Part shown: in pieces, positions 12,741 through 36,566 of the stretch
Layout: each line of letters opens with the position of its first letter
How positions within the stretch are numbered: the first letter of the stretch is position 1
Virus record (IMG/VR): IMGVR_UViG_3300037119_000968
Span: 1-49,630 of that record
Source of the DNA: a virus
Reading direction: 5' to 3' (one strand)
Length of the DNA: 49,630 nucleotides
Made by a program: the position numbers and the translations under genes
The notes under the pieces: generated by a model
The model's database searches: none
Seen by the model: the letters and a program-made list of their open reading frames with translations, nothing else
Told to the model about the DNA's origin: nothing

Positions 12741-12776
12741 ATCCCCAACACTGACAGATAGCGCCCGATCTGTCAA
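12741..12776 (-). promoter_or_regulatory. Promoter TTGACA-17-CAGTGT-7-ATG with operator-like dyad
   Basis: Minus strand: TTGACA (12776-12771), 17-nt spacer, CAGTGT (12753-12748), TGGGGAT, ATG at 12740. An inverted repeat TGACAGAT/ATCTGTCA (12752-12775, 8-bp arms, 8-nt centre) covers both boxes. A second promoter at 20890-20925 shares the architecture, including a TGAC-N16-GTCA dyad. A repressor or activator dimer could bind here. The dyad could also act as a weak terminator for the upstream gene, but lacks a U-tract. Confidence 0.68.
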
Positions 12777-13219: not shown

Positions 13220-13381
13220 GTGGAGACCCCGGAGGAGGAGTTAGTCCGTCTTCCCGTTGTCACGCTCGATGGACGGCCCCGATGGGCGTATCTCGCCGCC
13301 GTCCCACCTGAGGGGATGGTTCTGGTGGAAGAGGTCGAGTGGGATGGCCTAGTAGGGGTCCATCTTCGGGACGTCGGGTGA
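13220..13381 (+). CDS. Acidic hypothetical protein before endolysin (53 aa)
   Basis: GTG at 13220 follows directly on the previous TAG, and the TGA at 13379 overlaps the endolysin GTG. The product is acidic with beta-strand tendency (VRLPVVTLDGRPRWAYLAAV, then MVLVEEVEWDGL). No family was recognised. It is supported by perfect packing between two confident genes. Confidence 0.6.
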   Translation: METPEEELVRLPVVTLDGRPRWAYLAAVPPEGMVLVEEVEWDGLVGVHLRDVG

Positions 13382-14466
13382 CCTTCACCCCTGCCACGGC
13401 GGCACTGTTGGTCCGGGCCAACGGGGGCACGGACGAGGAGGCGATCTTCCTTGCGTCGGTCATGCCGGGGGAGTCTGGGGGCGACCCTGACATCGTGAAC
13501 ACCCATGCCTCGTGCGGTCAGGCCAATGGGTTGATCCTTCATGCCGTGGGGCTGTTCCAGATCTGCGACTACCCGAGCAGGGGCACGAGGGCGCAACTCC
13601 GCAACCCTGACCACAACGCCCGGGAGGCGCTGAAGATCCTGCGCAGCCAGTCCAGGGCGGCATGGACGGCGACCCCTGACCCCGATGCAGCCGACGAGGC
13701 GAGACGTGCTCTCGCAGGAGGTACGCCGATGGAGACGTGGCACCCGAGAGCGATCCACGCCGGGGCCAACCGTGGGGGGTCATCGTTCATCGGCGTCCCG
13801 ACGAAGCTGGTCCTGCACACGATCGAGACGCCGGCCGACACGTTGTACGAGTACAACTCGGTCAGCTACTTCGGAAACAGCTTCTGGCCCCACGCCACCA
13901 TCGACTCCCAAGGCATCCACCAGCACCTGGGCATCGACGGGTCGGCGTTCGCTCTGTACCACGCTAGCGGCCGGGTCGACACGAACCTGGCCAACGCCGT
14001 CCAGTGCGAGATCATGGGCCAAGCGGCGCACATCAACGACATCCCCGAGGAGACGTGGGGCCACCTGGCTGATTGGCTGGGTTGGTGCGCGGTGCAGACC
14101 AGTACCCCGATCACCTTCGCCGACTTCCGGGGCGACGGAGCCTACGGCGAGAATGCCCCTCAGCGGTTCAGCGATGACGAATGGCTCGCCTTCTCCGGTA
14201 TCTGCGGTCACCAGCACGTTCCCCAAAACGACCACTGGGACCCGGGCGCCATCGACACCGTGAAGCTCGCCCGCCTCATCCTGACCGTCGACCCCACCCA
14301 GGAGGATGACTTGACCACCGACGAGCACGAGACGCTCTACGCCACAAAGGACATGACCAAGGCCACCAACGAGGCCGTGGGCCGGATCGAGGTCGCCATC
14401 CGTGACCAGACGAGCGGCATCGGCGCCAAGCTCGACCAGATGATCGAACTGCTAAGTCAGAAGTGA
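13378..14466 (+). CDS. Endolysin: lytic-transglycosylase-like domain plus amidase domain
   Basis: A 362-aa protein, GTG at 13378 (GTGA overlap; longer frames upstream are not needed). Residues ~10-95 look like a lytic-transglycosylase/lysozyme domain: 'FLASVMPGESGGDP' with E32 as the likely acid, then AVGLFQICDYP and NPDHNAREALKIL. Residues ~140-305 are an amidase-like zinc domain: H147 in KLVLHTIE, H278/H280 in CGHQH, then NDHWDPG, the usual end of phage amidases. A helical C-terminus (~310-362) follows. No signal peptide, so release needs a holin. Its cell-wall-binding part appears to be encoded separately, next door at 14463. Confidence 0.88.
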   Translation: MTFTPATAALLVRANGGTDEEAIFLASVMPGESGGDPDIVNTHASCGQANGLILHAVGLFQICDYPSRGTRAQLRNPDHNAREALKILRSQSRAAWTATPDPDAADEARRALAGGTPMETWHPRAIHAGANRGGSSFIGVPTKLVLHTIETPADTLYEYNSVSYFGNSFWPHATIDSQGIHQHLGIDGSAFALYHASGRVDTNLANAVQCEIMGQAAHINDIPEETWGHLADWLGWCAVQTSTPITFADFRGDGAYGENAPQRFSDDEWLAFSGICGHQHVPQNDHWDPGAIDTVKLARLILTVDPTQEDDLTTDEHETLYATKDMTKATNEAVGRIEVAIRDQTSGIGAKLDQMIELLSQK

Positions 14467-14684
14467 ACGGCTACCCGAACCACTTCCACTACCAGGGCGG
14501 ACCCGAGGTCGCTGGGCACGTCACCACGATTCAGTACGTACTCAGGTACGGATGGGGATACGTGTGGCTGGCAGTCGACGGGTACTTCGGTCCGAACACG
14601 ACCAACGCCGTGAGGGAACACCAGCGGCGCAAGGGACTGGTGCAGGATGGCATCGTCGGGCCTGCGACGTGGGCGGCACTGTGA
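14463..14684 (+). CDS. Stand-alone peptidoglycan-binding domain protein
   Basis: A 73-aa protein made of one PG_binding_1 domain: 'TTIQYVLRYGWGYVWLAVDG' then YFGPNTTNAVREHQRRKGL and DGIVGPATWAAL, the family signature VDGxFGpxTxxAVrxfQ...G.VGp.TW. GTG at 14463 overlaps the endolysin TGA by 4 bp. In most lysins this domain is fused to the enzyme; here it is a free cell-wall-binding subunit, possibly acting in trans with the endolysin. It has no signal peptide. Confidence 0.9.
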   Translation: MNGYPNHFHYQGGPEVAGHVTTIQYVLRYGWGYVWLAVDGYFGPNTTNAVREHQRRKGLVQDGIVGPATWAAL

Positions 14685-17086: not shown

Positions 17087-17088
17087 CC

Positions 17089-17572: not shown

Positions 17573-17729
17573 CGAACGCCGGTCCCAACAGTGCCAGCAG
17601 GTACACCAGAACGACGGGCGCCAACGTGTTCCGGTGCCCACGGGGGCACAGTGACTCGCTCATGGGCTCCGCGTGGCGCAGGTCCGCCAGCAGCCAGCAC
17701 GTAGGGCACGGGACGACTGGCAGGGTCAT
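17565..17729 (-). CDS. 54-aa protein sharing its start with the ASCH gene
   Basis: ATG at 17729 overlaps the ASCH stop (ATGA). The first ten residues, MTLPVVPCPT, are identical to those of the upstream ASCH gene at 18313, and the DNA around both start codons is nearly the same (17704-17729 against 18289-18313). The rest differs: a CxxC-like set (VPCPTCWLLADL, ESLCPRGHRN) and a hydrophobic C-terminus (LAPVVLVYLLALLGPAF). This looks like a gene whose 5' end was duplicated when the ASCH gene inserted or duplicated here. Confidence 0.65.
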   Translation of the reverse strand: MTLPVVPCPTCWLLADLRHAEPMSESLCPRGHRNTLAPVVLVYLLALLGPAFDG

Positions 17730-18313: not shown

Positions 18314-18570
18314 GGGGTGATGCACCGGTAGTGGACGGGACCTGACCGCCCGTGGTGTTCCCCCTCGCCTGGTGCCACGTGCCATCCGCACTCGTAACAC
18401 CCCTCGTGGCACTGGTCGTGGTGGTCGGCGGCAGCGAGGGACAGCGCCCCGACGAGCACGCCAGTCTCACCGTCGAATCTCCGCTGCCACTCCGGGTCGC
18501 AGTAGGAACACCGGAGTACCAGATCAGGACCGTCGACCTCCACGGCCAGAAGGTGAGCGCCGATCTTCAT
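18310..18570 (-). CDS. Cys/His-rich hypothetical protein (86 aa)
   Basis: ATG at 18570; both ends overlap neighbours in ATGA fashion. An N-terminal 'MKIGAHLLAVEVDGPDLVLR' strand pair leads to CSYCDPEWQRRF (CxxC), then HHDQCHEGCYECGWHV and a final HYRC. There are enough ligands for one or two zinc ions. The pattern looks like a small treble-clef or ribbon protein, probably binding nucleic acid or protein. No named family was recognised. Confidence 0.68.
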   Translation of the reverse strand: MKIGAHLLAVEVDGPDLVLRCSYCDPEWQRRFDGETGVLVGALSLAAADHHDQCHEGCYECGWHVAPGEGEHHGRSGPVHYRCITP

Positions 18571-18872
18571 GGGTCGACCATTTCCTCGACGTGAGTCTCC
18601 ATGTGCGCCACGCACTCCCGCTCGATGGCGTCGAAGTGCCGCCGAGCCATCTCGGTGACCGCCCCGTTGATCCTTTCCTGAATCGTGTCTCGGACCATCG
18701 GGGGGAGTGCCGGGAGTGCCCCACGACGAAGATGATGGGGTACATCGGTCAGCATGGTCGGCATAGGCGGCTCGTCCATGTACCAGTCACAGAAGGGACA
18801 GAGCAGTCGGGAACCACCGGGGGTGCCGGGAGTGGTCATGCCCGGATGGTCGGGGCGGATGGGGCCGCTCAC
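18567..18872 (-). CDS. Hypothetical protein with CxxC and helical C-terminus (101 aa)
   Basis: GTG at 18872 overlaps the upstream TGA (ATG at 18839 is an internal alternative). After a disordered N-terminus it has LLCPFCDWYMD, a Pro-rich linker, and a long helix (VRDTIQERINGAVTEMARRH). A single CxxC could pair with a later Cys/His. It lies in the coupled early operon; the function is unknown. Confidence 0.65.
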   Translation of the reverse strand: MSGPIRPDHPGMTTPGTPGGSRLLCPFCDWYMDEPPMPTMLTDVPHHLRRGALPALPPMVRDTIQERINGAVTEMARRHFDAIERECVAHMETHVEEMVDP

Positions 18873-19069
18873 GTCGGTATCGGCGCACGGTTGACGCCTG
18901 TCATCACGTACTCCATCGACGGCAGGCGGGACTCGTGACCGACGATGAAGATGATGTCACCCGTGCCATCGTCACAAGGGCGCACATTGGTTGGGTGTAG
19001 GTCGTGTTCGATGAGGTACTGATCCTCGGCGTCGGGGTCCTGCCAGGAACGGTGGGCGGTGGTGGTCAC
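18869..19069 (-). CDS. Small hypothetical protein (66 aa)
   Basis: GTG at 19069 overlaps the preceding TGA, and the end overlaps the next GTG. The product (SWQDPDAEDQYLIEHDLHPT... DIIFIVGHESRLPSMEYVMT) is acidic and shows no domain. Its middle 'NVRPCDDGTGDIIFIVGHES' may form a beta hairpin. Supported by operon packing only. Confidence 0.6.
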   Translation of the reverse strand: MTTTAHRSWQDPDAEDQYLIEHDLHPTNVRPCDDGTGDIIFIVGHESRLPSMEYVMTGVNRAPIPT

Positions 19070-19317
19070 GAGTCGTCTCCGGTGTAGGCGGGCGGGATGG
19101 CGTGGATCATCGGCAGCCCTTCGGCGTCGTACCCGCAGGCGTCCCGTTGGGCGCCGCAGACGGGGCACGGGGGACCGAAGATCTCCAACGGGTCCTCGGG
19201 TGATGGGTCATACGCCGTCTCGTCCCACCGTGGGTCGGGTCGGTCGCCGTAGACGTGCTCCCAGAACTCGTCGTCGGTCATCACGGCCCGCTTCTCATAT
19301 TCCGGGCACAGGCTCAC
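19066..19317 (-). CDS. Acidic protein with zinc-finger-like CxxC (83 aa)
   Basis: GTG at 19317 in a GTGA overlap. An acidic N-terminus (MTDDEFWEHVYGDRPDPRWD) and 'GPPCPVCGAQRDACGYDAEG' with three Cys, then IHAIPPAYTGDD. The CPVCGA motif is typical of short zinc ribbons. It belongs to the 13-gene early operon; the role is unknown. Confidence 0.65.
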   Translation of the reverse strand: MSLCPEYEKRAVMTDDEFWEHVYGDRPDPRWDETAYDPSPEDPLEIFGPPCPVCGAQRDACGYDAEGLPMIHAIPPAYTGDDS

Positions 19318-19628
19318 GTTTCCCCCTCTGGGCTATCCGAAGTCGTCTGAGCGTCCAACACGCCGAATTTTCGTACTAGCGAAGCTATGGCGGCCTTCCT
19401 GAGTGGGCGCACGGCACGCTCGCCCTCTGAGTCGAAGGACCAGACCGTGCCCCCGCGACGGTCCCTCGGCACCATGCCGATAGCGTCGGGCGCAAGGCAC
19501 ACCAGTTTCGTGTCGTCGCCCTTGCCGAAGTGGACCTGATGCACGTCGAAGGCACGGGGGCTGGTGAAGATCACCCCGCACGCCGGGCACTGGCACTCGT
19601 TACCGATGGGCGAGAGGTCAGCGGGCAC
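19314..19628 (-). CDS. C2H2 zinc-finger phage protein
   Basis: A 104-aa protein; GTG at 19628 gives a 104-residue form starting VPADLSPIG, overlapping the upstream gene by 11 bp. 'ECQCPACGVIFTSPRAFDVH' then QVHFG has the CxxC-x12-HxxxH layout of a C2H2 finger, followed by 'KLVCLAPDAIGMV' and a segment ending in VWSFDSEGE. This matches a family I know from actinophages in which a single finger precedes a 'CL.P...GM...GvW' motif. Probably DNA- or RNA-binding; the target is unknown. Confidence 0.75.
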   Translation of the reverse strand: MPADLSPIGNECQCPACGVIFTSPRAFDVHQVHFGKGDDTKLVCLAPDAIGMVPRDRRGGTVWSFDSEGERAVRPLRKAAIASLVRKFGVLDAQTTSDSPEGET

Positions 19629-20076
19629 GACGGTTGACCTTGGCACGCTTGGCCCGCAGGTCATCGAGAGTCGCTGCGTCGGCCAGGCCTGCCATCGCCT
19701 CATCGAACTCGTTACGGTGTGCCTCGATGAGTAGCCCAATCACCCGTAGTTCGCTGTTGAGGCGTTCCCGGCGCTCGCCGTAAACGATGTCCCGTCCGAT
19801 GACCTCGGCAGGGTCCCTTTCCCACAGGTCGAGGAAGGCGGCGACCTGTTCGTCATGGGTCTGCTTGACCTTCCACCCTGTGTACCGCTGGGCTGTGTGC
19901 CAACAGGTCATGCAAATACCCATCGCCGCCCGCTGTTGCCCCAGGTCCGTTACCCGCCGGTAAAACTCGGCACGACTGATCATCAACTCGGGCTCGTCCC
20001 GCCCGCACTCAGACCGACGGTCACCGATCCGCCACGGTGGGTTTGGCCGTTCGACGTGGTCGACCCTTTCCTTCAC
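19618..20076 (-). CDS. 152-aa conserved protein with CxxC motif, copy B
   Basis: GTG at 20076 overlaps the previous TGA. It is the paralog of 14681-15139: it shares RVDHVERPNPPWR, SRAEFYRRVTDLGQQRAAMG, CMTCWHTAQRY and the helical C-terminus VIGLLIEAHRNEFDEAMAGL. Copy B is in the early operon while copy A is in the late lysis operon, so the phage may express versions of it at both times. The function is unknown. Confidence 0.78.
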   Translation of the reverse strand: MKERVDHVERPNPPWRIGDRRSECGRDEPELMISRAEFYRRVTDLGQQRAAMGICMTCWHTAQRYTGWKVKQTHDEQVAAFLDLWERDPAEVIGRDIVYGERRERLNSELRVIGLLIEAHRNEFDEAMAGLADAATLDDLRAKRAKVNRRAR

Positions 20077-20315
20077 CGGTAATCCCCAGACGCACGGCGA
20101 GCGACGGTGACTCTCACTGGTGGCCTGTCACTCACCATTAGAGATACACCCGAGTGGCGCCGTTCGTGACGAGTCATGTACCGGCAGTGGACTATCTCGG
20201 AACGCAGCCGGACGGCCAGATCGTCCACGGGCGGTGGCCGAGGGACGGTATCGCTCGGGGTGGGAAGCGGGGCGATGTTCGGTCGCCGCTGTCCGGTCTT
20301 CCGGCGCCACCTCAT
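20073..20315 (-). CDS. Basic Pro-rich hypothetical protein (80 aa)
   Basis: ATG at 20315, ATGA overlap at both ends. A basic N-terminus (RWRRKTGQRRPN), a Pro-rich linker and a basic C-terminal half (HCRYMTRHERRHSGVSLMVS). The 'HERRHSG' resembles half of a zinc finger but the Cys pair is missing. No family was recognised. Confidence 0.58.
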   Translation of the reverse strand: MRWRRKTGQRRPNIAPLPTPSDTVPRPPPVDDLAVRLRSEIVHCRYMTRHERRHSGVSLMVSDRPPVRVTVARRASGDYR

Positions 20316-20509
20316 CGTGGCCCCCTCTCGGCTTCGAACCGGGCGACCCACAAGCGGGAGAACACCTTGCCTGGCAACGTGTCGACCCGCCAGCCCCAGG
20401 CGTTGCAGTCGTAGGAGACCATGACGCCGGTGGCGTGCTTCCAAGCGGCCTTACCGAACTTGGCCCACTGGCCGGAGGCTTCCATGTCCTTGTCTGTGCG
20501 GGTTGTCAT
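20312..20509 (-). CDS. Small hypothetical protein (65 aa)
   Basis: ATG at 20509 overlaps the previous stop. It is rich in Trp and Lys (ASGQWAKFGKAAWKHATGVM, then WGWRVDTLPGKVFSRLWVAR), consistent with a compact alpha/beta fold. No motif; supported by coupling. Confidence 0.6.
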   Translation of the reverse strand: MTTRTDKDMEASGQWAKFGKAAWKHATGVMVSYDCNAWGWRVDTLPGKVFSRLWVARFEAERGPR

Positions 20510-20889
20510 ACCCGTACCTCCTGTCCGAGAAGGTGGTCGGCCCCGTCGAGGATGTCCCACAGCACGACCATGGCGTTGTTGGCGTAGCCGTTGATCGGTG
20601 CAGCGTGCGCCTCCAGCCAATCGAGCCTGTCGCCGTGACCCTGTGCCACCAGTTCGGCCCGGTGCGATGCCCGCTTCTCGTCACGAGCCGCCAGCCATGC
20701 GGTGCGGTTGGCCTCTCGCTCGACCGCACCCACCGCCCATCCGGTGGCCTTGGCTGCGCATCGCCGGCCGAGGGCGCCTTCCGTCCCGTCCGGGTAGCGA
20801 ACCGAGAACACCCGGCCAAGCTCCCGGCCGCAAGCGTCACACTGTCCCTGCTCGCTCGTGATCCCCGTCAGCGTTGCCGTGTTCGTCAT
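20506..20889 (-). CDS. Cys-containing conserved phage protein, first gene of the 13-gene operon
   Basis: A 127-aa protein, ATG at 20889 immediately downstream of a clear promoter. 'CDACGRELGRVFSVRYPDGT' then LGRRCAAKATGW is a recurrent motif of phage and plasmid proteins with a CxxC and a later Cys that probably hold one metal ion. The C-terminus is helical (VEREANRTAWLAARDEKRAS). As the operon leader it may be among the earliest proteins made. The function is not known. Confidence 0.75.
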   Translation of the reverse strand: MTNTATLTGITSEQGQCDACGRELGRVFSVRYPDGTEGALGRRCAAKATGWAVGAVEREANRTAWLAARDEKRASHRAELVAQGHGDRLDWLEAHAAPINGYANNAMVVLWDILDGADHLLGQEVRV

Positions 20890-20925
20890 GTCCCCAATAC
20901 TGACAGGCGCAGCGCCACTAGTCAA
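20890..20925 (-). promoter_or_regulatory. Promoter TTGACT-17-CAGTAT-7-ATG driving the 13-gene operon
   Basis: Minus strand: TTGACT (20925-20920), 17-nt spacer, CAGTAT (20902-20897), TGGGGAC, ATG at 20889. It is the sister of 12741-12776: the block CTGTCAGT(A/G)TTGGGGA and the TGAC-N16-GTCA dyad are shared. The spacer here also contains a perfect GGCGC-A-GCGCC palindrome (20906-20916). Spacing implies a leaderless mRNA. Confidence 0.72.
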
Positions 20926-20937
20926 GACGAAAGACGA

Positions 20938-21396
20938 CTAACAGTTCCACGCCGGGGGCCAGGGCTGCAAGCCACGGAGGGCCAGTAACTCGGCGGCCCA
21001 TGCGTCCTGGACGGCGGGGGGCGCAAGGTCGGCGGTCGCATACCCGCCGTAGCCGCCCCACGTTCCGACGTCTGCCTGATAGGCGCCGAAGTACCCATTG
21101 CCCGTGTTCGTGGCGTATCCGGCGGCACCCTGTTCGTGCCCTCGGATGCACGCCAGGGTGTCCGCCACGGAAGGGCTCGGGGTCGGCGGGGTACCTTCGA
21201 CCGCAACCGCAGTGACGGTCGTCACAGGGAACGTCGTGGTGGTGTCACCAGGGCGCAGGTCCCCTTGCCGAGACGGTGCCGACCCCGAGGTCGGGCTTGC
21301 ACCGTTAGGGGCTACTTCCCCGAAGCCCCCAACGGCACAAGGTCCAGAGGCGCAGGCGGCGAGGCCCACGCAGATTGCAGCGATGATGGTCGTCAT
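20938..21396 (-). CDS. Rpf-like muralytic lipoprotein
   Basis: A 152-aa protein, ATG at 21396. The N-terminus is a lipoprotein signal (MTTIIAAICVGLAAC, lipobox LAAC with C15), followed by a Thr/Pro/Ser-rich linker. Residues ~78-150 match the transglycosylase-like/Rpf domain: 'CIRGHEQGAAGYATNTGNGY' with E88 as the likely catalytic acid, then FGAYQADVGTWGGYGGYATA, and VQDAWA...LRG.QPWPPAWNC. Rpf-type enzymes cleave actinobacterial peptidoglycan and wake dormant cells. It would be exported and lipid-anchored, unlike the cytosolic endolysin. It has its own -10 box between two early operons. Confidence 0.85.
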   Translation of the reverse strand: MTTIIAAICVGLAACASGPCAVGGFGEVAPNGASPTSGSAPSRQGDLRPGDTTTTFPVTTVTAVAVEGTPPTPSPSVADTLACIRGHEQGAAGYATNTGNGYFGAYQADVGTWGGYGGYATADLAPPAVQDAWAAELLALRGLQPWPPAWNC

Positions 21397-21408
21397 CCGT
21401 GAAGCCTA
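21397..21408 (-). promoter_or_regulatory. Candidate leaderless promoter of the Rpf-like gene
   Basis: Minus strand TAGGCT (21408-21403), then TCACGG and ATG at 21396 (6-nt spacing). No Shine-Dalgarno. It lies just past the stop of the upstream operon. Confidence 0.5.
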
Positions 21409-21412
21409 GGCC

Positions 21413-21637
21413 TCACTCACCATCGACGGCCCAATCGTACGGGCGGCGCATGGCCGCTTCCATCGCCGTCGCCTTGGCCTCGCCCCACGTCCGAATCATG
21501 GCGCCCAGGTCCGCCGCCATCTTCGCCACGTCGGCACGGAGACGCACCATCGACTCAGAGTATTGCGGCCGCCAGTAGGCGACGGGCCGGTGGTCGTCGG
21601 CCAGCGCCCTCAACTTGCGGCGATCGTAGGCGTTCAC
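21413..21637 (-). CDS. Helical hypothetical protein (74 aa)
   Basis: GTG at 21637 in a GTGA overlap. The product is largely helical and basic (AYDRRKLRALADDHRPVAYW, then VRLRADVAKMAADLGAMIRT). It ends 16 bp before the Rpf-like gene's start. Last gene of the long operon that begins at 27190. No family was recognised. Confidence 0.6.
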   Translation of the reverse strand: MNAYDRRKLRALADDHRPVAYWRPQYSESMVRLRADVAKMAADLGAMIRTWGEAKATAMEAAMRRPYDWAVDGE

Positions 21638-21813
21638 CACGTGACCACCGATGCGAAGTGCGCCCGCAGTTGGGCGACACACTCCGTGATCGGGTCACCG
21701 TGCCAGAAGGACGGGAACCCCGTGTACTCCCACAGAGCGTTGTCGGCGGCAGCGTCGGTCAGTACCAGCCTGAACTCGGACGCCACCGACCGGACGAGTT
21801 GTAGCCAGGTCAC
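21634..21813 (-). CDS. Small hypothetical protein (59 aa)
   Basis: GTG at 21813 overlaps the previous TGA. The sequence TWLQLVRSVASEFRLVLTDA and then 'WEYTGFPSFWHGDPITECVA' has a helix-strand-helix feel but no known motif. Supported by coupling on both sides. Confidence 0.58.
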   Translation of the reverse strand: MTWLQLVRSVASEFRLVLTDAAADNALWEYTGFPSFWHGDPITECVAQLRAHFASVVTW

Positions 21814-22085
21814 GAGACTCCTTCTGCTATCTGGCGCATCCGTGACCAACATTCGTCGCAGCGGCACAGGGTACCGACGACGGCATGGGCGACCGCGGGC
21901 TTGGGACGGGTGGCACGGGACGAACGGTGTTGCAGGTGGTAGGACCGGGCGTAGACGTTCTGTGCCGTCTGACAACGGGCACACCCGGCTCGATAGACAC
22001 GATGGGCGTCACAGTGGGGACGGCGTCCGAGGCCATCGACCATCCCGACGTAGCGGGTGAAGCAGTAGGGGAGGTCAGGCGTCAT
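21810..22085 (-). CDS. Zinc-ribbon-like small protein (91 aa)
   Basis: ATG at 22085. Contains 'HCDAHRVYRAGCARCQTAQN' (C/H plus CxxC) and a second pair 'GTLCRCDECWSR', enough for a zinc ribbon or two half-sites. The form 'H..Y..GCRC..C' recurs in phage proteins (compare 34433-34684 here). There is an 18-bp gap to the upstream gene, the only real break inside this operon. The function is unknown. Confidence 0.66.
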   Translation of the reverse strand: MTPDLPYCFTRYVGMVDGLGRRPHCDAHRVYRAGCARCQTAQNVYARSYHLQHRSSRATRPKPAVAHAVVGTLCRCDECWSRMRQIAEGVS

Positions 22086-22103
22086 AAGCGGTGTTATGGG
22101 CGG

Positions 22104-22313
22104 TCATGCGCCCAACCGAATCAGCCTGTAGCCGTCGATGATGAGCCAGTCGATAAGCCGTTCGGCGTCAGCCTTCGCCTGTGACCGCTGACAGGCATCG
22201 GGAGCCCATGCGGGGTCCGGGGTGGTGCCAGAGTTCAGGCACGAGCCGAGATAATCCACGAGGTACTGGTCGAGGAACCATTCCTCGGCGCACTCCACCG
22301 CGTTGTCAGCCAT
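22104..22313 (-). CDS. Small acidic hypothetical protein (69 aa)
   Basis: ATG at 22313 overlaps the previous gene by 8 bp. The N-terminal acidic helix (VECAEEWFLDQYLVDYLGSC) and a second helix (SQAKADAERLIDWLIIDGYR) suggest a compact helical protein with three Cys. No family was recognised; a longer GTG start exists at 22382 but would overlap the neighbour's whole length. Confidence 0.6.
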   Translation of the reverse strand: MADNAVECAEEWFLDQYLVDYLGSCLNSGTTPDPAWAPDACQRSQAKADAERLIDWLIIDGYRLIRLGA

Positions 22314-22482
22314 CGCCCATAACCCCCATTGCGTCGGGTGTGACCGGGGGGTCTGTCGTCTCCGCGTCCTCGGCGGACCCACGATCTCCAGCCGTGACCC
22401 AGGCGACTAGCTCGGCTAGCAGCGCCTCAGCGCCAGCGGCCGTTATGGGCACTCGGAGCCCATTGCGGCTGATGCCGCTCAC
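22306..22482 (-). CDS. Small hypothetical protein (58 aa)
   Basis: GTG at 22482 in a GTGA overlap. It has a short N-terminal strand pair (SGISRNGLRVPITAAGAEAL), one helix (LLAELVAWVTAG) and an acidic tail. Supported by packing alone. Confidence 0.55.
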   Translation of the reverse strand: MSGISRNGLRVPITAAGAEALLAELVAWVTAGDRGSAEDAETTDPPVTPDAMGVMGDG

Positions 22483-22619
22483 GTCCCCTCCTTCTCGCAC
22501 GTCGGGTGCCTCGGCACTCCGTCAGGGTCGATGGATACGCACTGCTCGTCACAGATGGCACAGGGGCCGGCGGACGACTCGACGTAGACCCATCCTCGGT
22601 CGGGGCGAGTGTCCGTCAT
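22479..22619 (-). CDS. 46-aa zinc-finger-like micro-protein
   Basis: ATG at 22619 overlaps the previous stop (ATGA). It has 'GPCAICDEQCVSIDPDGVPR' followed by HPTC: a CxxC plus H-x-x-C, the ligand set of a minimal zinc knuckle. The family and role are unknown. Confidence 0.6.
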   Translation of the reverse strand: MTDTRPDRGWVYVESSAGPCAICDEQCVSIDPDGVPRHPTCEKEGT

Positions 22620-22840
22620 GGTTCCCAATCGAACCGGACGACCCATTGCCCTGGACCATACCGTCCGTCGAAGTTGCGGCGGGTGTGGTGTCCCCCGGCG
22701 TCGTGCTTCACCCAATCGGGCGAACTAGACACCCCGGAAGCCACGATCGAACCCTCTGGGTCCTTGACCACGTAGCAGACATCCGACGCCCACATCCCAG
22801 GTGGGAAGAGGGAGCAGACCAAGACAACAGGCTCCGTCAT
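22616..22840 (-). CDS. Hypothetical protein (74 aa)
   Basis: ATG at 22840 overlaps the resolvase-like gene's stop. The 74-aa product is beta-rich (PVVLVCSLFPPGMWASDVCY, VVKDPEGSIVASGVSSS, GQWVVRFDWEP) and probably a small beta-barrel or sheet. No known motif. Confidence 0.6.
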   Translation of the reverse strand: MTEPVVLVCSLFPPGMWASDVCYVVKDPEGSIVASGVSSSPDWVKHDAGGHHTRRNFDGRYGPGQWVVRFDWEP

Positions 22841-23235
22841 GGCGCCTCGCAGGTGAAGCACGGTGACCCGGTGCCACCTTCGCAGACACGGCACAGGCCG
22901 TCGCTCAGGGGTTCCGACAGGGCCAGTTCGGACAGGAGCCACAGGGGGATGAGGGCGTAACCCTCGGCGGTGGATTTCTGACGGCGGGGGAAGACGACGG
23001 CCCAACGGGTGACACCGGCGTTGAGTGCCTCCTTCTTGGCCTCGTCCATCCATGCCGCCAGTGACAACGTGGCGCAGTTCTTCGCCTCGATCACCCACCC
23101 GTCGATTCCGCTCACGTCCCCTTTGTCCTTGTTCCCACTCTGCGCCCGACGTTCGGCACGAGGGTGCAGGAGCCGCAGGTGGTCGACCACGCGTGTTTCC
23201 CAGGCCGTGCCCTTGCGCTTGCTCGGGTTGGTCAC
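22837..23235 (-). CDS. Resolvase-like PD-(D/E)XK nuclease
   Basis: A 132-aa protein, ATG at 23235. The N-terminal 'KRKGTAWETRVVDHLRLLHP' with E13, then the nuclease core 'KDKGDVSGIDGWVIEAKN' with D40, E50 and K52, fits the Holliday-junction-resolvase-like family used by phages to trim or resolve branched DNA before packaging. A Cys-rich tail (CRVCEGGTGSPCFTC) adds a zinc knuckle. It is adjacent to the WhiB gene with a 4-bp overlap. The substrate is inferred from the family. Confidence 0.78.
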   Translation of the reverse strand: MTNPSKRKGTAWETRVVDHLRLLHPRAERRAQSGNKDKGDVSGIDGWVIEAKNCATLSLAAWMDEAKKEALNAGVTRWAVVFPRRQKSTAEGYALIPLWLLSELALSEPLSDGLCRVCEGGTGSPCFTCEAP

Positions 23236-23525
23236 GACGCCACCCTACGAGCGGCATACCGTGACTGACGGTCAGCGACCCGACGTTCCTTGGACGATCG
23301 TCCACCCCACGTGCCCGTCTTCTCGTGGGCGCCGTACGCTGCGCACTCTGCGACTACGGGACAGATGGCACAGGCGGCACGGGCGGCCGGTGTCACGGGG
23401 TCGTTGTCGTCCTCGGGGAAGAACGCTTCGGTCGGGAGGTCACGGCACGTTGCCTCGGTGACCCACGCACGGTCGCCACCGTGGCCCATGAGGCTGCGGA
23501 GTTCCTGTGTCACGTACCGGGTCAC
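23232..23525 (-). CDS. whiB-like: WhiB-family iron-sulfur transcriptional regulator
   Basis: A 97-aa protein. Four Cys in the WhiB layout (C27, then C52-x2-C55-x5-C61) would hold a [4Fe-4S] cluster, followed by the G(T/V)WGG turn at 71-75 and a basic C-terminal segment (RSSKERRVADRQSRYAARR) for DNA contact. WhiB proteins bind region 4 of the main actinobacterial sigma factor. Phage WhiB proteins are known to reprogram host genes such as whiB2. It lies in the early operon, so it probably acts soon after infection. Confidence 0.93.
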   Translation of the reverse strand: MTRYVTQELRSLMGHGGDRAWVTEATCRDLPTEAFFPEDDNDPVTPAARAACAICPVVAECAAYGAHEKTGTWGGRSSKERRVADRQSRYAARRVAS

Positions 23526-23836
23526 TGGTCGGCCTCTGCCAGTTCGATGGCGCGGTCGAACATGCGGAGAACGGTGGCGTGGTCGCCGTTGTCGTTGGCG
23601 CTGCCGGGAGAGTGGAGGCCGAGAACCCTCGCTGCCAAGTGGAGAAACTGGTCAACTTGGGATGTCCCCAACTCGGCGTCAACTGCTCCGTAGGAACACC
23701 AGCGGACGGCATCCGAACTAGTGGGATCGGTCCGATACCCCGCCCGGTCCCGAGCGTAGAACTCCTGCGTCCACCGCGACGGATCGCTGATCCGTGCCCT
23801 CGCTCGTCGGAGAATGTCGGCCTCGGCTGCGCTCAT
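23522..23836 (-). CDS. DUF6197-like conserved protein
   Basis: A 104-aa protein, ATG at 23836 in ATGA overlap. 'ILRRARARISDPSRWTQEFY' then ARDRAGYRTDP...RWCSYGAVDAE and the C-terminal 'DHATVLRMFDRAIELAEADQ' follow the pattern of a small family (DUF6197-type) seen in phages and bacterial mobile DNA, whose function is unknown. The WC.yGA motif may hold a ligand. It is next to WhiB and the Gp3-like gene. Confidence 0.75.
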   Translation of the reverse strand: MSAAEADILRRARARISDPSRWTQEFYARDRAGYRTDPTSSDAVRWCSYGAVDAELGTSQVDQFLHLAARVLGLHSPGSANDNGDHATVLRMFDRAIELAEADQ

Positions 23837-25131
23837 CCCTCTCCCTCCTTCGCAGGTACCAGTACGATCACTCCATCGTCGCCCACGTCGGTCACCAGGC
23901 GCCCGTCTTTCAGTGCGGCGAACGTGCCCATGAGCGACGACATCTCGGTGTGCAGGATGGCCTTGGACGAGCCGGTCCTACCGTGTGTCGCCTGGCGCAC
24001 GATGGCATGGCGCACGGCCTCCGTCGTCTTCGTGATCCCGGGACCGGGGTACCGCTCCTTCGTCCACTCGGACACGGCCTTAGCGAAGTCACGTTGACGG
24101 TCGATCGGGATCAGCGACTCGTCATCGTCGGTGAAGGGGCGGCCGGGGTCGGTCTCCGGGGGGCGCACCTTGCTCCTGCTCTCGGGCGGGACGATTCTCC
24201 CGCCCTCGGCCGCTTCCCCCGGAGAATCTGCCAGCGGGTCACCTTGGGCCAGTTGATCGGCCGTGGACGCTCCCGGCGACGCTAACTGCTGTGGCGCCAT
24301 CGGCGCAGGTGTCCCTTCACCCTCTCTCTCGGGGGCTAGCTGGCGAGAAGGGTCATAGTCATCGTAAGGGGAGGCGACGGGCGCCAGAGCGGCGGGGGCA
24401 GTAGCCGCCAACTCTGGACGTCCCGTCAACAGTGCCTTGGCACCGTTCCCAACGGGGGCACGAGAGGGGGTGCCACCGTCAAGCTCCAACAGCCCGACGC
24501 CGATGAGGTCGAGCTGCGGGACAACGTAGTCACGACGGCCGGCGTGGTGGACGATGCGCAGGTAAGCCGGGACACGGTACCCACGGTCCAGCATCCCCTC
24601 GGCCACGGCCAGGGCGGCGGGCAACTGACGGGCGGCGATGAGGCCCCGTGACACGAGGCGCCCGGCACCGGCGACGTTGACCTCGGGACAGACGACGAGA
24701 ATCTGCGTGGTGGGCTTGCACGCTCGTTGGTCGGCCATCCGTGCCGCTGGGTCCTGGGGACACTGGCACGCCTTGGCACGGGCGCCGAAGTCCACGACCT
24801 GATTGATCCCGTCGCACCGTCTGACGCAGCCGCCAGAGTCCCAACTTTCCCAAAATTGCAGGAGGCTGGATCCAGGGAGGATGATTATAGGAAGCACGCT
24901 CGTTGGAAGTACCGCCTGCCATTCCCGTGCTCCATCTTCTCTAGCCCAAGGGAGAATGTCGCCTCCGTACACAGCGACGAAAGACTCGACGGCATCCTTG
25001 GCAGGACTGGTTACTCGGATCGAACCACCTAGGTGCTTTGGCGCCAGTTTGCCGCTGCGAGTAGGGGACTGGGCACCCAGCCGCAACCTATAGGTTGTAC
25101 TATGACTCGCCTGAAGATCGAGAATCGGCAC
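23833..25131 (-). CDS. Gp3-like (recombination-directionality-factor family) protein
   Basis: A 432-aa protein, GTG at 25131 with a strong AGGAGG upstream. 'YRLRLGAQSPTRSGKLAPKH' leads into 'AVYGGDILPWA', 'GGCVRRCDGINQVVDFGARA', then CQCPQDP...C and a 'VVCPEVNVAGAGRLVSRGLI' segment: the Gp3-like family whose phiC31 member is the integrase directionality factor. A long Pro/Glu-rich linker separates a helical C-terminus (ending DVGDDGVIVLVPAKEGEG). Many actinophages without phiC31-type integrase keep this gene, so it may act in replication or recombination instead. No integrase was seen here. Confidence 0.75.
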   Translation of the reverse strand: MPILDLQASHSTTYRLRLGAQSPTRSGKLAPKHLGGSIRVTSPAKDAVESFVAVYGGDILPWAREDGAREWQAVLPTSVLPIIILPGSSLLQFWESWDSGGCVRRCDGINQVVDFGARAKACQCPQDPAARMADQRACKPTTQILVVCPEVNVAGAGRLVSRGLIAARQLPAALAVAEGMLDRGYRVPAYLRIVHHAGRRDYVVPQLDLIGVGLLELDGGTPSRAPVGNGAKALLTGRPELAATAPAALAPVASPYDDYDPSRQLAPEREGEGTPAPMAPQQLASPGASTADQLAQGDPLADSPGEAAEGGRIVPPESRSKVRPPETDPGRPFTDDDESLIPIDRQRDFAKAVSEWTKERYPGPGITKTTEAVRHAIVRQATHGRTGSSKAILHTEMSSLMGTFAALKDGRLVTDVGDDGVIVLVPAKEGEG

Positions 25132-26425: not shown

Positions 26426-26427
26426 GA

Positions 26428-27190: not shown

Positions 27191-27226
27191 TCCCTGCCCC
27201 TCTCGTGTCGTGTTCCTTGTGTCCTA

Positions 27227-27255: not shown

Positions 27256-27588
27256 CTAGGGAGACGGGATTTGTTCGGTCGGGTCGTCGTCCCATAGTTG
27301 GATTTCGCCCGAGGGCACGCCCGGCGCCGGCATCGGACCCCACAGGTTCACGGCCGATTCGAGGTAGTCGATCAGCGTCACAATCGTCTTGCCCATCGCC
27401 TGTCGGCCCTGCGGGGTGGACAGGCCGAACAGGACCGCCCGGCGCATGTAGTTACCCGCCCACTCGTCCCAGGTCGTCGGGGGTTCGCTCTTGACGGCGG
27501 CGACGTGGGCGGCAAACGCCCCGGGCGAGTCCCATTTCTGGTCGGCGTAGAGCCGACGTTCCTCGGTGATCCACCGCTCAACACTCAC
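27256..27588 (-). CDS. Hypothetical protein downstream of ThyX (110 aa)
   Basis: GTG at 27588 overlaps the ThyX TGA. Helical N-terminus (VERWITEERRLYADQKWDSP), a middle segment 'TTWDEWAGNYMRRAVLFGLS' and a second helix (GKTIVTLIDYLESAVNLWGP). It resembles small actinophage proteins of unknown function that follow nucleotide-metabolism genes. Last gene of its operon. Confidence 0.62.
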   Translation of the reverse strand: MSVERWITEERRLYADQKWDSPGAFAAHVAAVKSEPPTTWDEWAGNYMRRAVLFGLSTPQGRQAMGKTIVTLIDYLESAVNLWGPMPAPGVPSGEIQLWDDDPTEQIPSP

Positions 27589-28298
27589 GGGCACACTCGA
27601 CCGTTGGCACAGAATGAGCCGTGCGTCAGGGGGAACAGACGGGCGAACTCATCCTCCATCCCCTCGGCCACCATCTCGATCTCCCGTTGGGGGAAGGAGG
27701 GGAACGTCGACTCAGGGTGCTTCGTGCGCAGGCTCAGGAAGGCCATGAGGGAGCGGGCGTTGCAGGTGGCGTACATGGACGAGTAGATGGCGACGGACAG
27801 CACGCAGCGGGCGATCTCACGGGCGACGCCATCAGCTAGGGCTTCCTCGTAGGCGGCATAAGTGGCGGCGTACTGGTCGCTCATCCGTTCGGCTTGCTCG
27901 GACCATTGCACGTACGAGCCCGGCACGAACTCGTAGGCGCCCGGCTTGCCGACCTGAACGAGGTTGCGATCACTGGCAGGCACGTAGAACACGGGGTCGA
28001 GTTGCTTGTACCGGCCGCTCTCCTCGTTGTAGCTCCATCCGATCCGGTGGCGGTGGAACTCTCGGAAGACGAAGATCGGCGCCGAGATCAGGAAGGTCAT
28101 GGCGTTGTGCTCGAACGGCGTGCCGTGGCGGTTTTTCATCAGGAAGTTGATGAGGCCGGCGCCCGCTTCCTTGTCGAACGACTCGGCACTGGCGGCGCCC
28201 TGAGTCGACACCTTGGCTGCTGCGACGATGGCGGCATCGGTGCCCATGGACTGCATGAGCACGACGGTCATGTCGCTACGGGTCGTGATCTCGCTCAC
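27585..28298 (-). CDS. thyX: Flavin-dependent thymidylate synthase ThyX
   Basis: A 237-aa protein, GTG at 28298 (GTGA overlap). It carries the ThyX signature RHRxxSxNExSxRY at ~83-97 (FHRHRIGWSYNEESGRYKQL) and a late RTKHPESTFPSF-like helix. ThyX makes dTMP from dUMP with FAD, NADPH and methylene-tetrahydrofolate, feeding DNA synthesis. The length agrees with the family. It is in the same operon as the helicase and methyltransferase, which fits a role in phage DNA replication or nucleotide supply. Confidence 0.95.
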   Translation of the reverse strand: MSEITTRSDMTVVLMQSMGTDAAIVAAAKVSTQGAASAESFDKEAGAGLINFLMKNRHGTPFEHNAMTFLISAPIFVFREFHRHRIGWSYNEESGRYKQLDPVFYVPASDRNLVQVGKPGAYEFVPGSYVQWSEQAERMSDQYAATYAAYEEALADGVAREIARCVLSVAIYSSMYATCNARSLMAFLSLRTKHPESTFPSFPQREIEMVAEGMEDEFARLFPLTHGSFCANGRVCP

Positions 28299-28666: not shown

Positions 28667-29655
28667 GGGGTCGCTCCTTCGAGTTCGTCTAGCAGGGTGG
28701 GGGTGTCGCCGGGGTCGGATGCGGCGTTGGCGACGTTGCGGCACGCCTGGCGGTAGTACGTCGGTTTGAGTTCGACACCGATGGCACGGCGGCCGGCGGC
28801 GACGGCGCCGTACACCTCACTACCCACGCCCATGAACGGAGTGAGGATCGTCTCGCCGGGGTTGGACCCGAGAACGAGGGCACGGTCGATCACGTCGAGC
28901 TGCAACGGGTGACAGTGGCGCTCGTCCTCTTCGGCCCGTGCTTCACGGAACGGAAGTACCCGGTCGATGCGTACGTCGTCCCAGAACGCCGAGGCGTACT
29001 GTCTCCATATCCAGTGTGAGTAGCGGTTCTCCGTCTGCTTGCCCTGCCACCCCCGGAAGCGGTGCAACTCGGCGGGGATGGGTCGTGACCCGGCGTAGTC
29101 CATCAGCCCGTGCGGGTGCTCGACGGGCACGGGGTTCTCCCCACGCTTGCGGAACCCGAGCAGGTAGTCGGCCGAGGCGACGGTGCATCGGGTGGAGTCC
29201 TCAACCAGCGTGCGGTGGGCCAGGTCCTTCTTCATCGTCCGGTTGCGCACCGCGAGCGGTTCCTTCCACACGTGGTAACGGGCGCAGTAGGACCAGCCCT
29301 GAGCACGGTGGAGACGGATGATGTCGCCGGGGAAGTCGGACAGAGCATCGCCGCCACTGTTGCCCGTGGGCACGTCCATGCAATGCACATAGGACATGCG
29401 CCCCGGCATGGTGGCACGGGTGATCTGTTCGAGGATGAATCCGTACTGCTCGAAGAACTGCTCGTAGGAGTCGGTGTTCGACAGGTCCCTCGGACTGGAC
29501 GAGTAGTGGTACAGGGCGCCCCCTCCCTCGGTGGCGAACGGGGGCGAGTAGATGGACATATGGACCGACCCGTCAGGGATGGACGGGAGCACTTCCATGT
29601 TGTCGCCGTTGTACAGGGCGTAACGGTCGGTGATGGTGGACTCGGCTACAGCCAT
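28663..29655 (-). CDS. DNA methyltransferase (N4-cytosine/N6-adenine type)
   Basis: A 330-aa protein, ATG at 29655. Motif IV SPPF is at 37-40 (VHMSIYSPPF), and the AdoMet-binding motif (TPFMGVGSEVYGAVAAGRRA, then IGVELKPTYY) comes near the C-terminus, the order of beta-class amino-methyltransferases. SPPF is compatible with N4-C or N6-A methylation. It overlaps the SNF2-type helicase by 10 bp. Together they may protect phage DNA from restriction; no matching endonuclease is seen beside it, so it is probably an orphan. Confidence 0.9.
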   Translation of the reverse strand: MAVAESTITDRYALYNGDNMEVLPSIPDGSVHMSIYSPPFATEGGGALYHYSSSPRDLSNTDSYEQFFEQYGFILEQITRATMPGRMSYVHCMDVPTGNSGGDALSDFPGDIIRLHRAQGWSYCARYHVWKEPLAVRNRTMKKDLAHRTLVEDSTRCTVASADYLLGFRKRGENPVPVEHPHGLMDYAGSRPIPAELHRFRGWQGKQTENRYSHWIWRQYASAFWDDVRIDRVLPFREARAEEDERHCHPLQLDVIDRALVLGSNPGETILTPFMGVGSEVYGAVAAGRRAIGVELKPTYYRQACRNVANAASDPGDTPTLLDELEGATP

Positions 29656-31025
29656 GCGGGGACCTGTACCTCTCGGTCGTAGTTCTCGGCGGTCGACACC
29701 GACTGTGCCTCGTTCATGCAGGCGACCAGCGAGTCGAACATGCGGTCAGCCTGAACTGCTTTGCGCTGCAAATTGGCGAGGGCCTTGCGTCCGCCCTCGG
29801 TCGTTATCACGTCGACCGTGACCTCGTGTTTTTGCCCGAACCGGTCGAATCGACGGATGGACTGGTAGAACTGCTCGTAGGAGTGAGAGGGGAAGTACGT
29901 CGTCCGGTGGCAGTGCTGCCAATTCATCCCCCACGCCCCGATCTTTGGTTTCGTGACGAGGACACGGAACTCACCCCGGCCGAATCCGATCAACGCTTCT
30001 TCCTTCTTGTCTTCGCTATCTGACCCGGTGACCTGTACGGCGTCGTCGATCAACTCGGTCAGTAGGTCGCCCTCGTCGTTGAGTTGGCACCAGGCCACGG
30101 CGGTGGGAGCGTCGGCCAGAAGTTCGGCCGCCTTCTCACACCGCTCGACCAGGGTGCGGCGGGTTTCCTCCCGTTCCTCGTGTAAGTGGGCGGCGGGTAC
30201 ATCGAACAGGCGCCCCTCGGGGGGTCGGGAGGCATCGACCACGTGCTGGCGGTAGACGACGGGTGGGCGCACGAACCCCTCGTCGGAGAACCCGAGGTCA
30301 GAGGGCTTGCGCATGGCTCGTGCCCACGATGCGACCCATCGCCAGAACGCCTCCTCGGCGTGACCCTTGAACCTCCACGCTTCCCGCTTCGTGGCGCTCA
30401 TCGACCGTCCGTGCTTGTAGATCAGCTTGTCCCGGTTGGTGAACCAACGGGTGAGCATGTCCTGATAGCCGAGGTACCCGAGAGCCTCGCTCGACGTGCC
30501 CAATTCCATGTAGTCGTTCGGTGCTGCCGTGGCAGTGCAGAGTTGGCGGTAGGGGAGTTTGCGCATGAACTGCGTCACGAGGGCCTTGCGCTCGGAGTCG
30601 AACGACTTAATCGCGCTGGACTCGTCGCACACCATTCCCGACACGTCGTCGGAGTCGAACAGGTGGAGACGGTCGTAATTGGTGATGGTGATGGGGGCGG
30701 TGATCCGTCCGTCCCGTGACACGGCGGCATCTATGTCGAACTTCTCAGCCTCGCCCAACGTCTGGAACGTCACGGCCAGTGGCGCCACCAGGAGTACGGG
30801 TCGACCGGTGTGTCGGTATGCGTTCTCGGCCCACACGAGCTGCATCGGAGTTTTCCCCCCGCCACAATCGACCAGCAGCGCATCGCGACCTTTGCGTAGC
30901 GCCCACTGGACGAGTGCCTCCTGGAAGTCGTACAGGAAGTCCGGCATCCAAACGGGATCGAACCCGTAGTCGTCGGAGTCCTGCGTCTTCCGGGCCAAGA
31001 ACGTGTGATAGTCCTCCGGGGTCAC
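29646..31025 (-). CDS. SNF2-type DEAD/DEAH-box helicase
   Basis: A 459-aa protein, GTG at 31025 chosen for the GTGA overlap with the upstream frame. Walker A VDCGGGKTP (~52-60), motif II DESS (134-137, in VCDESSAIKS), and motif VI QSIRRFDRFGQK near residue 400 identify a superfamily 2 SNF2-like ATPase. Phages encode such enzymes next to DNA methyltransferases and primases, for DNA remodelling or replication start. No nuclease domain was seen. Confidence 0.9.
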   Translation of the reverse strand: MTPEDYHTFLARKTQDSDDYGFDPVWMPDFLYDFQEALVQWALRKGRDALLVDCGGGKTPMQLVWAENAYRHTGRPVLLVAPLAVTFQTLGEAEKFDIDAAVSRDGRITAPITITNYDRLHLFDSDDVSGMVCDESSAIKSFDSERKALVTQFMRKLPYRQLCTATAAPNDYMELGTSSEALGYLGYQDMLTRWFTNRDKLIYKHGRSMSATKREAWRFKGHAEEAFWRWVASWARAMRKPSDLGFSDEGFVRPPVVYRQHVVDASRPPEGRLFDVPAAHLHEEREETRRTLVERCEKAAELLADAPTAVAWCQLNDEGDLLTELIDDAVQVTGSDSEDKKEEALIGFGRGEFRVLVTKPKIGAWGMNWQHCHRTTYFPSHSYEQFYQSIRRFDRFGQKHEVTVDVITTEGGRKALANLQRKAVQADRMFDSLVACMNEAQSVSTAENYDREVQVPAWL

Positions 31026-32135: not shown

Positions 32136-32172
32136 GGCACTCCTAACTAGCGTCGGATGAACGTACGGGGTG

Positions 32173-35243: not shown

Positions 35244-35248
35244 CGCCG

Positions 35249-35261: not shown

Positions 35262-36566
35262 GTGGACGACTGGACGAAGGCCCGGCTGAAGTGGCGGCTA
35301 CAGGCACGGCCGGGCCAGTTGGCGCCAGCGGGTGACTGGTTCATGTGGCTGCTGCGGGGCGGTCGCGGTGGGGGCAAGACGAAGACGGAGGTCGAGGACG
35401 CCTCCCGGTACCTGGCCCACAATCCGGGGCACCGACTGGCGGTGGTGACGCCGACGTTCGCTGATGCCCGTGACACGGTGATGGAGGGCGAGTCGGGGCT
35501 GCTCAATGCGATCCCTGATTCGGCGCTGCGGGGTGGCAGTCGGGACAAGGCGTGGAACCGGAGCATCGGGGAACTGTTCCTCGCCAATGGGTCCCAGGTC
35601 CGGTGCTACTCGTCAGAACGACCCGACCGTCTCAGGGGTCCGCAGCACCATCGTGCCCTTGTCGATGAGCCGGCGTCGTTCGCAGACGCTCATCGGGTGG
35701 ATGAGCAGGGGAACCCGCTCATCGGCACGACGTGGACGAACCTCCTCCTCGGGCTGCGCCTGGGTGAGTCCCCCCGTGTCGTGGTCGCTGGGACGCCGAA
35801 GACGGTCGGCCTGTACTCGCACCTGGTGTCCGTGGCCGACGTCACCAGCCTCTTGACGACGTACGAGAACCTCGACAACCTCGCCCCGACGTTCGCCGCT
35901 GCCATCCTCGACCGCTACAAGGGCACGAGGCTTGAGCGTCAGGAGTTGCTGGGCGAGCTGCTGACCGACGTCGAGGGCGCCATGTGGACGTGGCCCATGA
36001 TCGAGCCGTACCGGGTGGCGTCCCGTGATCTGCTGCCCGAGATGGCACGGGTGGTCGTGGGCGTCGACCCTGCCGCTTCCCACGGTCCCGGTTCCGCCGA
36101 GACGGGCATCATCGTCGCCGGCATGGGCGTCGACGGGCGCCTGTACGTCATGGCCGACTACTCGTGCCGGTCGACGCCCGAAGGATGGGCGTCACGGGTG
36201 GGCGTGGCTGCCGATGAGTGGGACGCCTCACTGGTGGTGGCCGAGCGGAACAACGGTGGGGAGATGGTCGGCTCCGTCCTGCGCCACGTGCGCCCGGATT
36301 TGCGGGTGAAACTGGTATGGGCCAGCAAGGGCAAGACGACCCGTGCCGAGCCGATCGTCGCTTGGTACGAACAAGGTCGCACGTCTCACCTCGTCGGCCT
36401 GTCGGTGTTGGAGAGCCAGCAAACGACTTGGGTGGCAGGGGACCCCTCCCCCGACCGTGTAGACGCCGGGGTCTGGGCAGCCACCGAACTCATCGGGCGC
36501 CGTCAGACAACGCTCCGTGTCGCCACCGGCCCCCTGTCGACAATCGTGCCATCCCGAGTGTCTTAG
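35262..36566 (+). CDS. terL: Terminase large subunit
   Basis: A 434-aa protein, GTG at 35262. The ATPase part has Walker A (GGRGGGKT, 33-40), a VVTPT strand (61-65) and Walker B ALVDEP (132-137). The nuclease part has VVVGVDPAAS with D269 as the first catalytic Asp, a middle acid in the ERNNGG region, and DRVDAGVWA near residue 413 for the last. It is the motor that cuts and packages phage DNA into the prohead. The compact 434-aa form is typical of actinobacterial siphophages. Confidence 0.95.
   Translation: MDDWTKARLKWRLQARPGQLAPAGDWFMWLLRGGRGGGKTKTEVEDASRYLAHNPGHRLAVVTPTFADARDTVMEGESGLLNAIPDSALRGGSRDKAWNRSIGELFLANGSQVRCYSSERPDRLRGPQHHRALVDEPASFADAHRVDEQGNPLIGTTWTNLLLGLRLGESPRVVVAGTPKTVGLYSHLVSVADVTSLLTTYENLDNLAPTFAAAILDRYKGTRLERQELLGELLTDVEGAMWTWPMIEPYRVASRDLLPEMARVVVGVDPAASHGPGSAETGIIVAGMGVDGRLYVMADYSCRSTPEGWASRVGVAADEWDASLVVAERNNGGEMVGSVLRHVRPDLRVKLVWASKGKTTRAEPIVAWYEQGRTSHLVGLSVLESQQTTWVAGDPSPDRVDAGVWAATELIGRRQTTLRVATGPLSTIVPSRVS

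Follow-up and report, generated by a model that had tools for sequence, protein, structure and literature searches.

A predicted Rpf-type lipoprotein encoded outside the lysis cassette of an IMG/VR virus

Introduction

Motifs of the Rpf or peptidoglycan-cutting type occur in the tape measure proteins of the mycobacteriophages Barnyard, CRB2 and TM4 (Mt3 in the last), and the TM4 motif has been shown to aid DNA injection into stationary cells (PMC1796659, PMC6392294). A different arrangement is represented by Kayvirus Tgl, which is reported as an exported muralytic protein that is transcribed by the host polymerase like early genes, lyses S. aureus only with nisin present and is interpreted as an additional or auxiliary endolysin (PMC7150955). 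The domain family PF06737 was counted 203 times in a phage lytic protein database (PMC8310338), so the domain is already known among phage lytic proteins. Among the open-licence papers that our searches listed, none dealt, judged by title and abstract start, with stand-alone exported phage Rpf proteins; phage Rpf domains are known from tape measures, and stand-alone exported actinophage Rpfs, many of them lipoprotein-like, were absent from the papers listed.

Here we describe an Rpf-like gene in a 49,630-base IMG/VR virus record, the whole of which is called the window below. A preliminary description of this DNA had proposed an early-region, surface-anchored phage Rpf with its own promoter, and we compared the locus with host Rpf proteins, with related viral loci and with the phage systems above.

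Results

An Rpf-like domain with a conserved catalytic Glu

The gene is an ATG-initiated open reading frame of 152 aa on the minus strand, and its parts are as follows.

20938..21396, minus strand: Rpf-like lipoprotein ORF, 152 aa (PF06737; RpfB/C/E matches; fold)
21352..21396, minus strand: predicted lipoprotein signal, residues 1-15, lipobox LAAC with Cys15 (fixed lipobox and hydropathy rule)
21169..21351, minus strand: Thr/Pro/Ser/Ala-rich linker, residues 16-76 (model confidence low over most of it)
20941..21168, minus strand: Rpf catalytic domain, residues 77-152, with the E88 codon at 21133-21135 and C83 and C152 as a possible disulfide (pLDDT, conservation)

Pfam returned one family, PF06737 (E 1.6e-10, residues 94-148), at 41.9 bits, which exceeds the curated cut-off of 27 bits, while PHROGs assigned a "transglycosylase" family (E 1.1e-4) and phmmer against solved chains ranked RpfB first (5.6e-8), followed by RpfE and RpfC. 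An AlphaFold2 model built from a 33-row alignment had a mean pLDDT of 74.8, with ten-residue block means of 90 and 91 for residues 71-80 and 81-90, 71 for residues 91-100 and 88-97 beyond. Structural alignment of the model by VIA-align 2 placed the M. tuberculosis RpfB catalytic domain at the top (4emn_B; Z 10.7, 1.8 A, 72 residues, 42% identity), with the other Rpf entries at Z of at least 9.0, bar one NMR entry (2n5z, 5.5), and no non-Rpf row above Z 6.6; Foldseek agreed. A fold search in a viral library placed at the top "Transglycosylase-like" proteins from uncultured Caudovirales, together with a Streptomyces phage Gilson protein annotated as Hydrolase; one row had E <0.001. The Rpf-like domain of the preliminary description is thus borne out by family score, sequence match and fold.

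In the phmmer alignment, E88 is aligned with RpfB Glu292, the catalytic residue according to a review that includes Gln310, Asp312 and Thr315 in the residues contacting the sugar (PMC11978375). Counting along the same alignment, the counterparts of these three residues are Q107, D109 and T112. Residues E88, G104, W113, Q130 and C152 were invariant in the 33 aligned rows, W146 was kept in 32, Q107 in 31 and T112 in 30, and D109 in only 2. The preliminary description had singled out the Glu as the residue to look for in relatives, where it was present throughout, and its conservation suggests that the domain would be muralytic. The nearest Cys before this Glu lies at Glu-5 in 17/33 rows, including C83 of the window protein, and at Glu-1, as in RpfB, in 6/33; a disulfide, if formed, would therefore be re-sited compared with Cys291-Cys355 of RpfB.

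Export signal and translation start

The N-terminus, MTTIIAAICVGLAAC, carries the lipobox LAAC, preceded by a hydrophobic region (mean hydropathy 2.51). Under a rule combining one fixed lipobox pattern with a hydrophobic stretch of mean hydropathy >1.5, this ORF was the sole match among the 361 window ORFs of at least 60 aa, in agreement with the lipobox noted previously. The n-region (MTT) contains no Lys or Arg; a positively charged n-region is a usual requirement for lipoproteins, with exceptions, and "lipoprotein" is therefore used here as a prediction.

The start of the gene is weakly marked. No clear Shine-Dalgarno sequence precedes the ATG at 21396, and the gene caller chose a start at 21168 instead, from which translation would give a 76-aa domain without an export signal. 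The linker, with codon-position GC values of 0.618/0.724/0.697, departs from the coding pattern seen in the remaining genes of the window, whereas the Rpf domain (0.688/0.597/0.818) is nearer to them and has a normal codon pattern. The long form is nevertheless favoured, because a related viral protein (L002) has the same order of parts, with lipobox LISC and Cys16 followed by a Thr/Pro linker and the Rpf domain. Taken together, the PF06737 and RpfB matches and the unique lipobox place the feature far above chance, and the ORF is a real gene feature.

Relatives are mostly short and exported-looking

Searching a phage collection by tblastn with the whole protein gave no match at 1e-3, and the domain alone gave two rows with E 4. 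Relatives were obtained through IMG/VR loci: the protein, the first relative found or alignments served as queries in four scans of viral records, which yielded 87 loci (L002-L088, some representing the same contig twice). The domain filter passed 86 of these, giving 52 distinct viral Rpf-domain sequences besides that of the window. Short, exported-looking proteins made up 36/52, a proportion that differs from a frequency for phages at large because the search alignments already contained exported members. By a home-made hydropathy and pattern rule rather than SignalP, 13 of these were lipoprotein-like (5 with a strict and 8 with a relaxed lipobox) and 23 were of the signal-peptide or membrane-anchor type with a hydrophobic N-terminal segment; the remaining sequences were long or long-tailed (10) or lacked a signal (6). 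Since the anchor type differs among related phages, being either a lipobox or a hydrophobic segment, lipid anchoring is not strictly conserved.

Two loci merit separate description. In L029, at 7722-8245, the domain is locally very similar to that of the window (LACIRSFEQGGAGYAT) and is seemingly frameshifted inside the Rpf domain, which seems to be a sequencing error or a decayed gene. In L034, a second Thr-rich, exported-looking protein is encoded at 8335-8937, immediately 3' of the Rpf lipoprotein gene.

The gene lies among replication-type genes and apart from the lysis genes

Replication-type genes form a leftward run, with the Rpf gene close to its far end. The run comprises a primase-like DUF3987 protein, helicase, DNA methylase, ThyX, exonuclease, HNH, Gp3-like protein, WhiB and a RusA-like resolvase. 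The neighbouring and reference features are listed below.

12747..12776, minus strand: second exact copy of the promoter-like element, before another small minus-strand gene
13378..14466, plus strand: endolysin-like protein, main lysis candidate (SLT_3-like and Amidase_2-like, both under the curated cut-off)
14463..14684, plus strand: peptidoglycan-binding protein, PG_binding_1
20506..20889, minus strand: next gene downstream, behind the promoter-like element
20896..20925, minus strand: promoter-like element TTGAC-N15-TGTCAGTRTT (equivalently TTGACW-N14-TGTCAGTRTTGGGGA), past the Rpf stop and before the gene at 20506-20889
21413..21640, minus strand: gene directly upstream, ending 16 nt before the Rpf ATG
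22837..23235, minus strand: RusA-like Holliday junction resolvase (phrog_244, 1.9e-21)
23232..23525, minus strand: WhiB-family regulator, 1.8 kb upstream of the Rpf gene (PF02467, 2e-14)
27585..28298, minus strand: ThyX thymidylate synthase (PF02511, 9.3e-45)
29646..31025, minus strand: DNA helicase (phrog_62, 1.5e-47)
35262..36566, plus strand: terminase large subunit (PF03237, PF17289)

The terminase, the tail genes and the endolysin-like pair are all on the plus strand, opposite the Rpf gene. The pair at 13378-14684 lies about 6.3 kb away, which agrees with the earlier placement of the gene outside the lysis cassette, and the arrangement of a holin-endolysin cassette, with an endolysin adjacent on the same strand, was not found at the Rpf gene. 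A virion (tail) lysozyme was ruled out, given a stand-alone protein of 152 aa, the strand opposite the tail genes and the single PF06737 match in the genome. The WhiB gene points to an Actinomycetota host. Phage_integrase and Resolvase families, as lysogeny markers, had no match in the window record, and a Gp3-like recombination-directionality-factor family was present.

The promoter that the preliminary description had given the gene was not upheld: the upstream gene ends just before the ATG, no sigma-70-type site was found (0 versus 1.9 expected in a scan of 17000-35300) and the promoter-like element lies downstream. This element, present in two exact copies, is probably a phage promoter or operator, with 3 matches at up to three mismatches versus 0.89 expected, a count that 9 shuffles also reached. 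The region and the surface anchor of the earlier reading stand, its own promoter does not, and "early" timing is suggested, weakly, by gene content.

Several other features of the window were recorded. Small paralogues, 64% identical, lie at 14774-15139 (plus strand), by the lysis genes, and at 19618-19983 (minus strand), in the early-type run. A single ASCH-like protein of L002 is matched by two minus-strand genes, at 11006-11746 and 17726-18313, which look like paralogues. A predicted protein with GYGNGDGYG-type repeats is encoded near the terminase gene (36899-37228, plus strand), and repeats at 123-nt spacing, including an exact 25-nt repeat, occupy 34462-34680 and adjoin a non-coding stretch before the gene at 34986.

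Gene neighbourhoods in related records

PF06737 was found in 17/17 records tested, of which 16 hold a single match and one holds two, and a WhiB gene was found in 10/17 and 12/24 records in two sets. The terminase (phrog_2) was detected in 14/38 records. Of ten non-redundant records in which both were present, seven have the Rpf gene and the terminase on opposite strands (G000, G002, G007, G010, G012, G017, G019), and three have them on the same strand (G001, G009, G027). A same-strand WhiB gene lay within 5 kb of the Rpf gene in 7/17 non-redundant records versus 2.0 expected (P 0.002) under a simple random-placement null, which ignores that both genes sit in early-type clusters. The seven are G000, G001, G003, G009, G018, G019 and G033. 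The WhiB count omits three near-copies (G020, G028, G034), and the WhiB and terminase comparison was restricted to records showing at least one of the two genes, set apart from the near-copies G008 and G013 and from the fragments or large-protein types G004, G006, G015 and G016, with positions in later loci computed from contig ranges.

Two loci were read by eye from their translations. L007 encodes helicase and methylase parts with 39% identity to those of the window; its Rpf ORF lies downstream of a helicase-methylase and a Gp3-like ORF and overlaps both of its neighbours, of which the preceding one is regulator-like. In L034, the Rpf ORF is grouped with WhiB, SSB-like and deaminase-like ORFs and with an endolysin-like ORF, so location alone does not decide against a lysis role.

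Relatives were also present in cultured phages. The L080 protein matched 31 phage records, comprising 28 Streptomyces phages and 3 Staphylococcus phages, and the Streptomyces phage relatives (Blueeyedbeauty and its kin) are mostly annotated as "hydrolase" or hypothetical. Blueeyedbeauty gp19 ("hydrolase") is oriented away from the structural genes. Its immediate neighbours are tRNA-Thr genes and two glycosyltransferases, genes for ThyX and a methylase function lie nearby, and a LysM-like endolysin is encoded separately as gp23.

Probable exchange between phages and actinobacteria

The phylogenetic comparison with host Rpf, which the preliminary description had proposed, was made by maximum likelihood on 82 domains, 53 from viruses and 29 from cells; many forks of the tree are unresolved since it rests on 77 columns. 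The window sequence and that of phage L007 were joined (98/84), and this pair fell inside a set of 23 rows (94/76) that included 17 cellular rows. The starred branches require at least 3 changes between virus and cell, and the best tree has 6. The top BLAST rows were a mixture of MAG and phage sequences and sequences of the class of the L089 genome, labelled Acidimicrobiia, in which PF06737 matched in 48/100 genomes at E 0.001, 42 of them above the cut-off. A single scan of genome contigs found no more than 2 loci in MAGs, possibly phage contigs that had been binned. From the tree and the BLAST mixture, Rpf genes were likely exchanged repeatedly between phages and actinobacteria.

Discussion

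We propose, with a probability of about 45%, that the gene encodes a phage Rpf-type muralytic lipoprotein that would loosen or remodel the wall locally, both before the endolysin acts and together with it. Starting from domain, fold, conserved Glu, lipobox pattern and location, all of which rest on sequence and a structural model, we infer the export, lipidation, activity, timing and purpose of the protein. Its signal would direct export by the host Sec pathway. On the outer face of the cytoplasmic membrane, the protein would be held by a lipid on Cys15, and during infection the flexible linker would give the Rpf domain the reach to cleave glycan strands close by in the host's own wall. Export is supported by the N-terminal signal and by the 36/52 viral relatives that are short with a signal or hydrophobic N-terminus, and a membrane-tethered muralytic enzyme is the likely product. 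Being tethered and probably weak, such an enzyme would not lyse the cell by itself, and a role in lysis proper fits less well with a lipid tether and a separate endolysin. By analogy with the proposal for Kayvirus Tgl, the best and sole characterised precedent found, auxiliary wall loosening appears the most likely purpose. The uncharged n-region, the weak start, the GC pattern of the linker and the possible start at 21168 count against this reading.

Two other purposes, both raised in the preliminary description and both compatible with the build of the protein, are stimulation of slow hosts and superinfection control. The same protein could instead act on the growth state of the host, stimulating slow or dormant infected cells or blocking their entry into dormancy, in the manner of host Rpfs, so that replication becomes productive. 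This is a doubtful but serious competitor, as the fold is common to host Rpfs, the gene is sited among replication genes and the WhiB neighbourhood exceeds its random expectation, although by a null that disregards the early-type clustering of both genes. That phages manipulate Rpf while infecting has been published for host genes: upon infection with phage WC1, 4/6 rpf genes of Rhodococcus are induced, and in the authors' view the phage may drive this as a means of preventing dormancy (PMC10986025). A lipid-tethered enzyme, however, would act on its own cell, which would already have to be active enough to make and export the protein. A protein at the surface could also change the wall or meet incoming tail proteins and so block a second infection, and the early-type region and the apparent anchor suit such a role, as does an analogy with a phage protein that has Ltp-like signatures and is implicated in Cutibacterium superinfection resistance (PMC11480721). 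We consider this improbable, because the catalytic Glu and much of its surroundings are kept, which pure steric exclusion would not need, and neither Pfam nor PHROGs returned an exclusion-type family for the protein. Slightly lower still do we place a host rpf acquired without a selected role, or an unexported domain translated from 21168: the linker codon pattern, the weak start and the apparent frameshift in L029 would fit, but the layout and the invariant residues are kept across independent phages, the codon pattern of the Rpf domain is normal and the tree requires at least 3 changes between virus and cell.

Many soil and freshwater actinobacteria are slow-growing or dormant. A broader version of the growth-state idea, which we regard as unlikely though less so than superinfection control, is that actinophages repeatedly capture host rpf, anchor its product on the infected cell and express it as part of the replication programme, frequently next to WhiB, as a wake-up module; if true, this would return slow or dormant hosts to growth and make infection productive. 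A recurrent, host-like, exported phage Rpf outside both the virion and the lysis cassette offers a concrete handle on phages facing such hosts, and the question is testable now because cultured Streptomyces phages carry a relative (Blueeyedbeauty gp19 and its kin).

Compared with host RpfB, RpfC and RpfE (PF06737), the window protein shares the domain, the fold, the catalytic Glu, equivalents of the three sugar contacts (Q107/D109/T112) and the C-terminal Cys. It differs from RpfB in having its first Cys at Glu-5 (C83) and not at Glu-1 and Ala108 at the position of Phe311, and it is phage-encoded and lacks the G5 and DUF348 domains of RpfB. With Barnyard, CRB2 and TM4 it has in common the use of an Rpf-like or peptidoglycan-cutting domain by a phage, but those motifs are parts of virion tape measures, whereas here the domain belongs to a separate, predicted exported protein outside the structural unit. 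Blueeyedbeauty gp19 likewise carries its Rpf domain on a protein of its own, begins with a signal-like N-terminus and is encoded apart from the structural genes in a phage that has another gene for its endolysin; in contrast, it has a long charged linker and no lipobox by the export-classification rule, and it comes from a genome of about 130 kb and falls on another branch of the tree. Kayvirus Tgl differs in being an IsaA/SceD-like protein of a staphylococcal phage with a type I signal peptide, no lipid anchor and a gene that lies a few genes from lysK, and resembles the window protein in being exported and lysozyme-like, with an Rpf-type motif, early-type transcription and a role other than that of main endolysin (PMC7150955).
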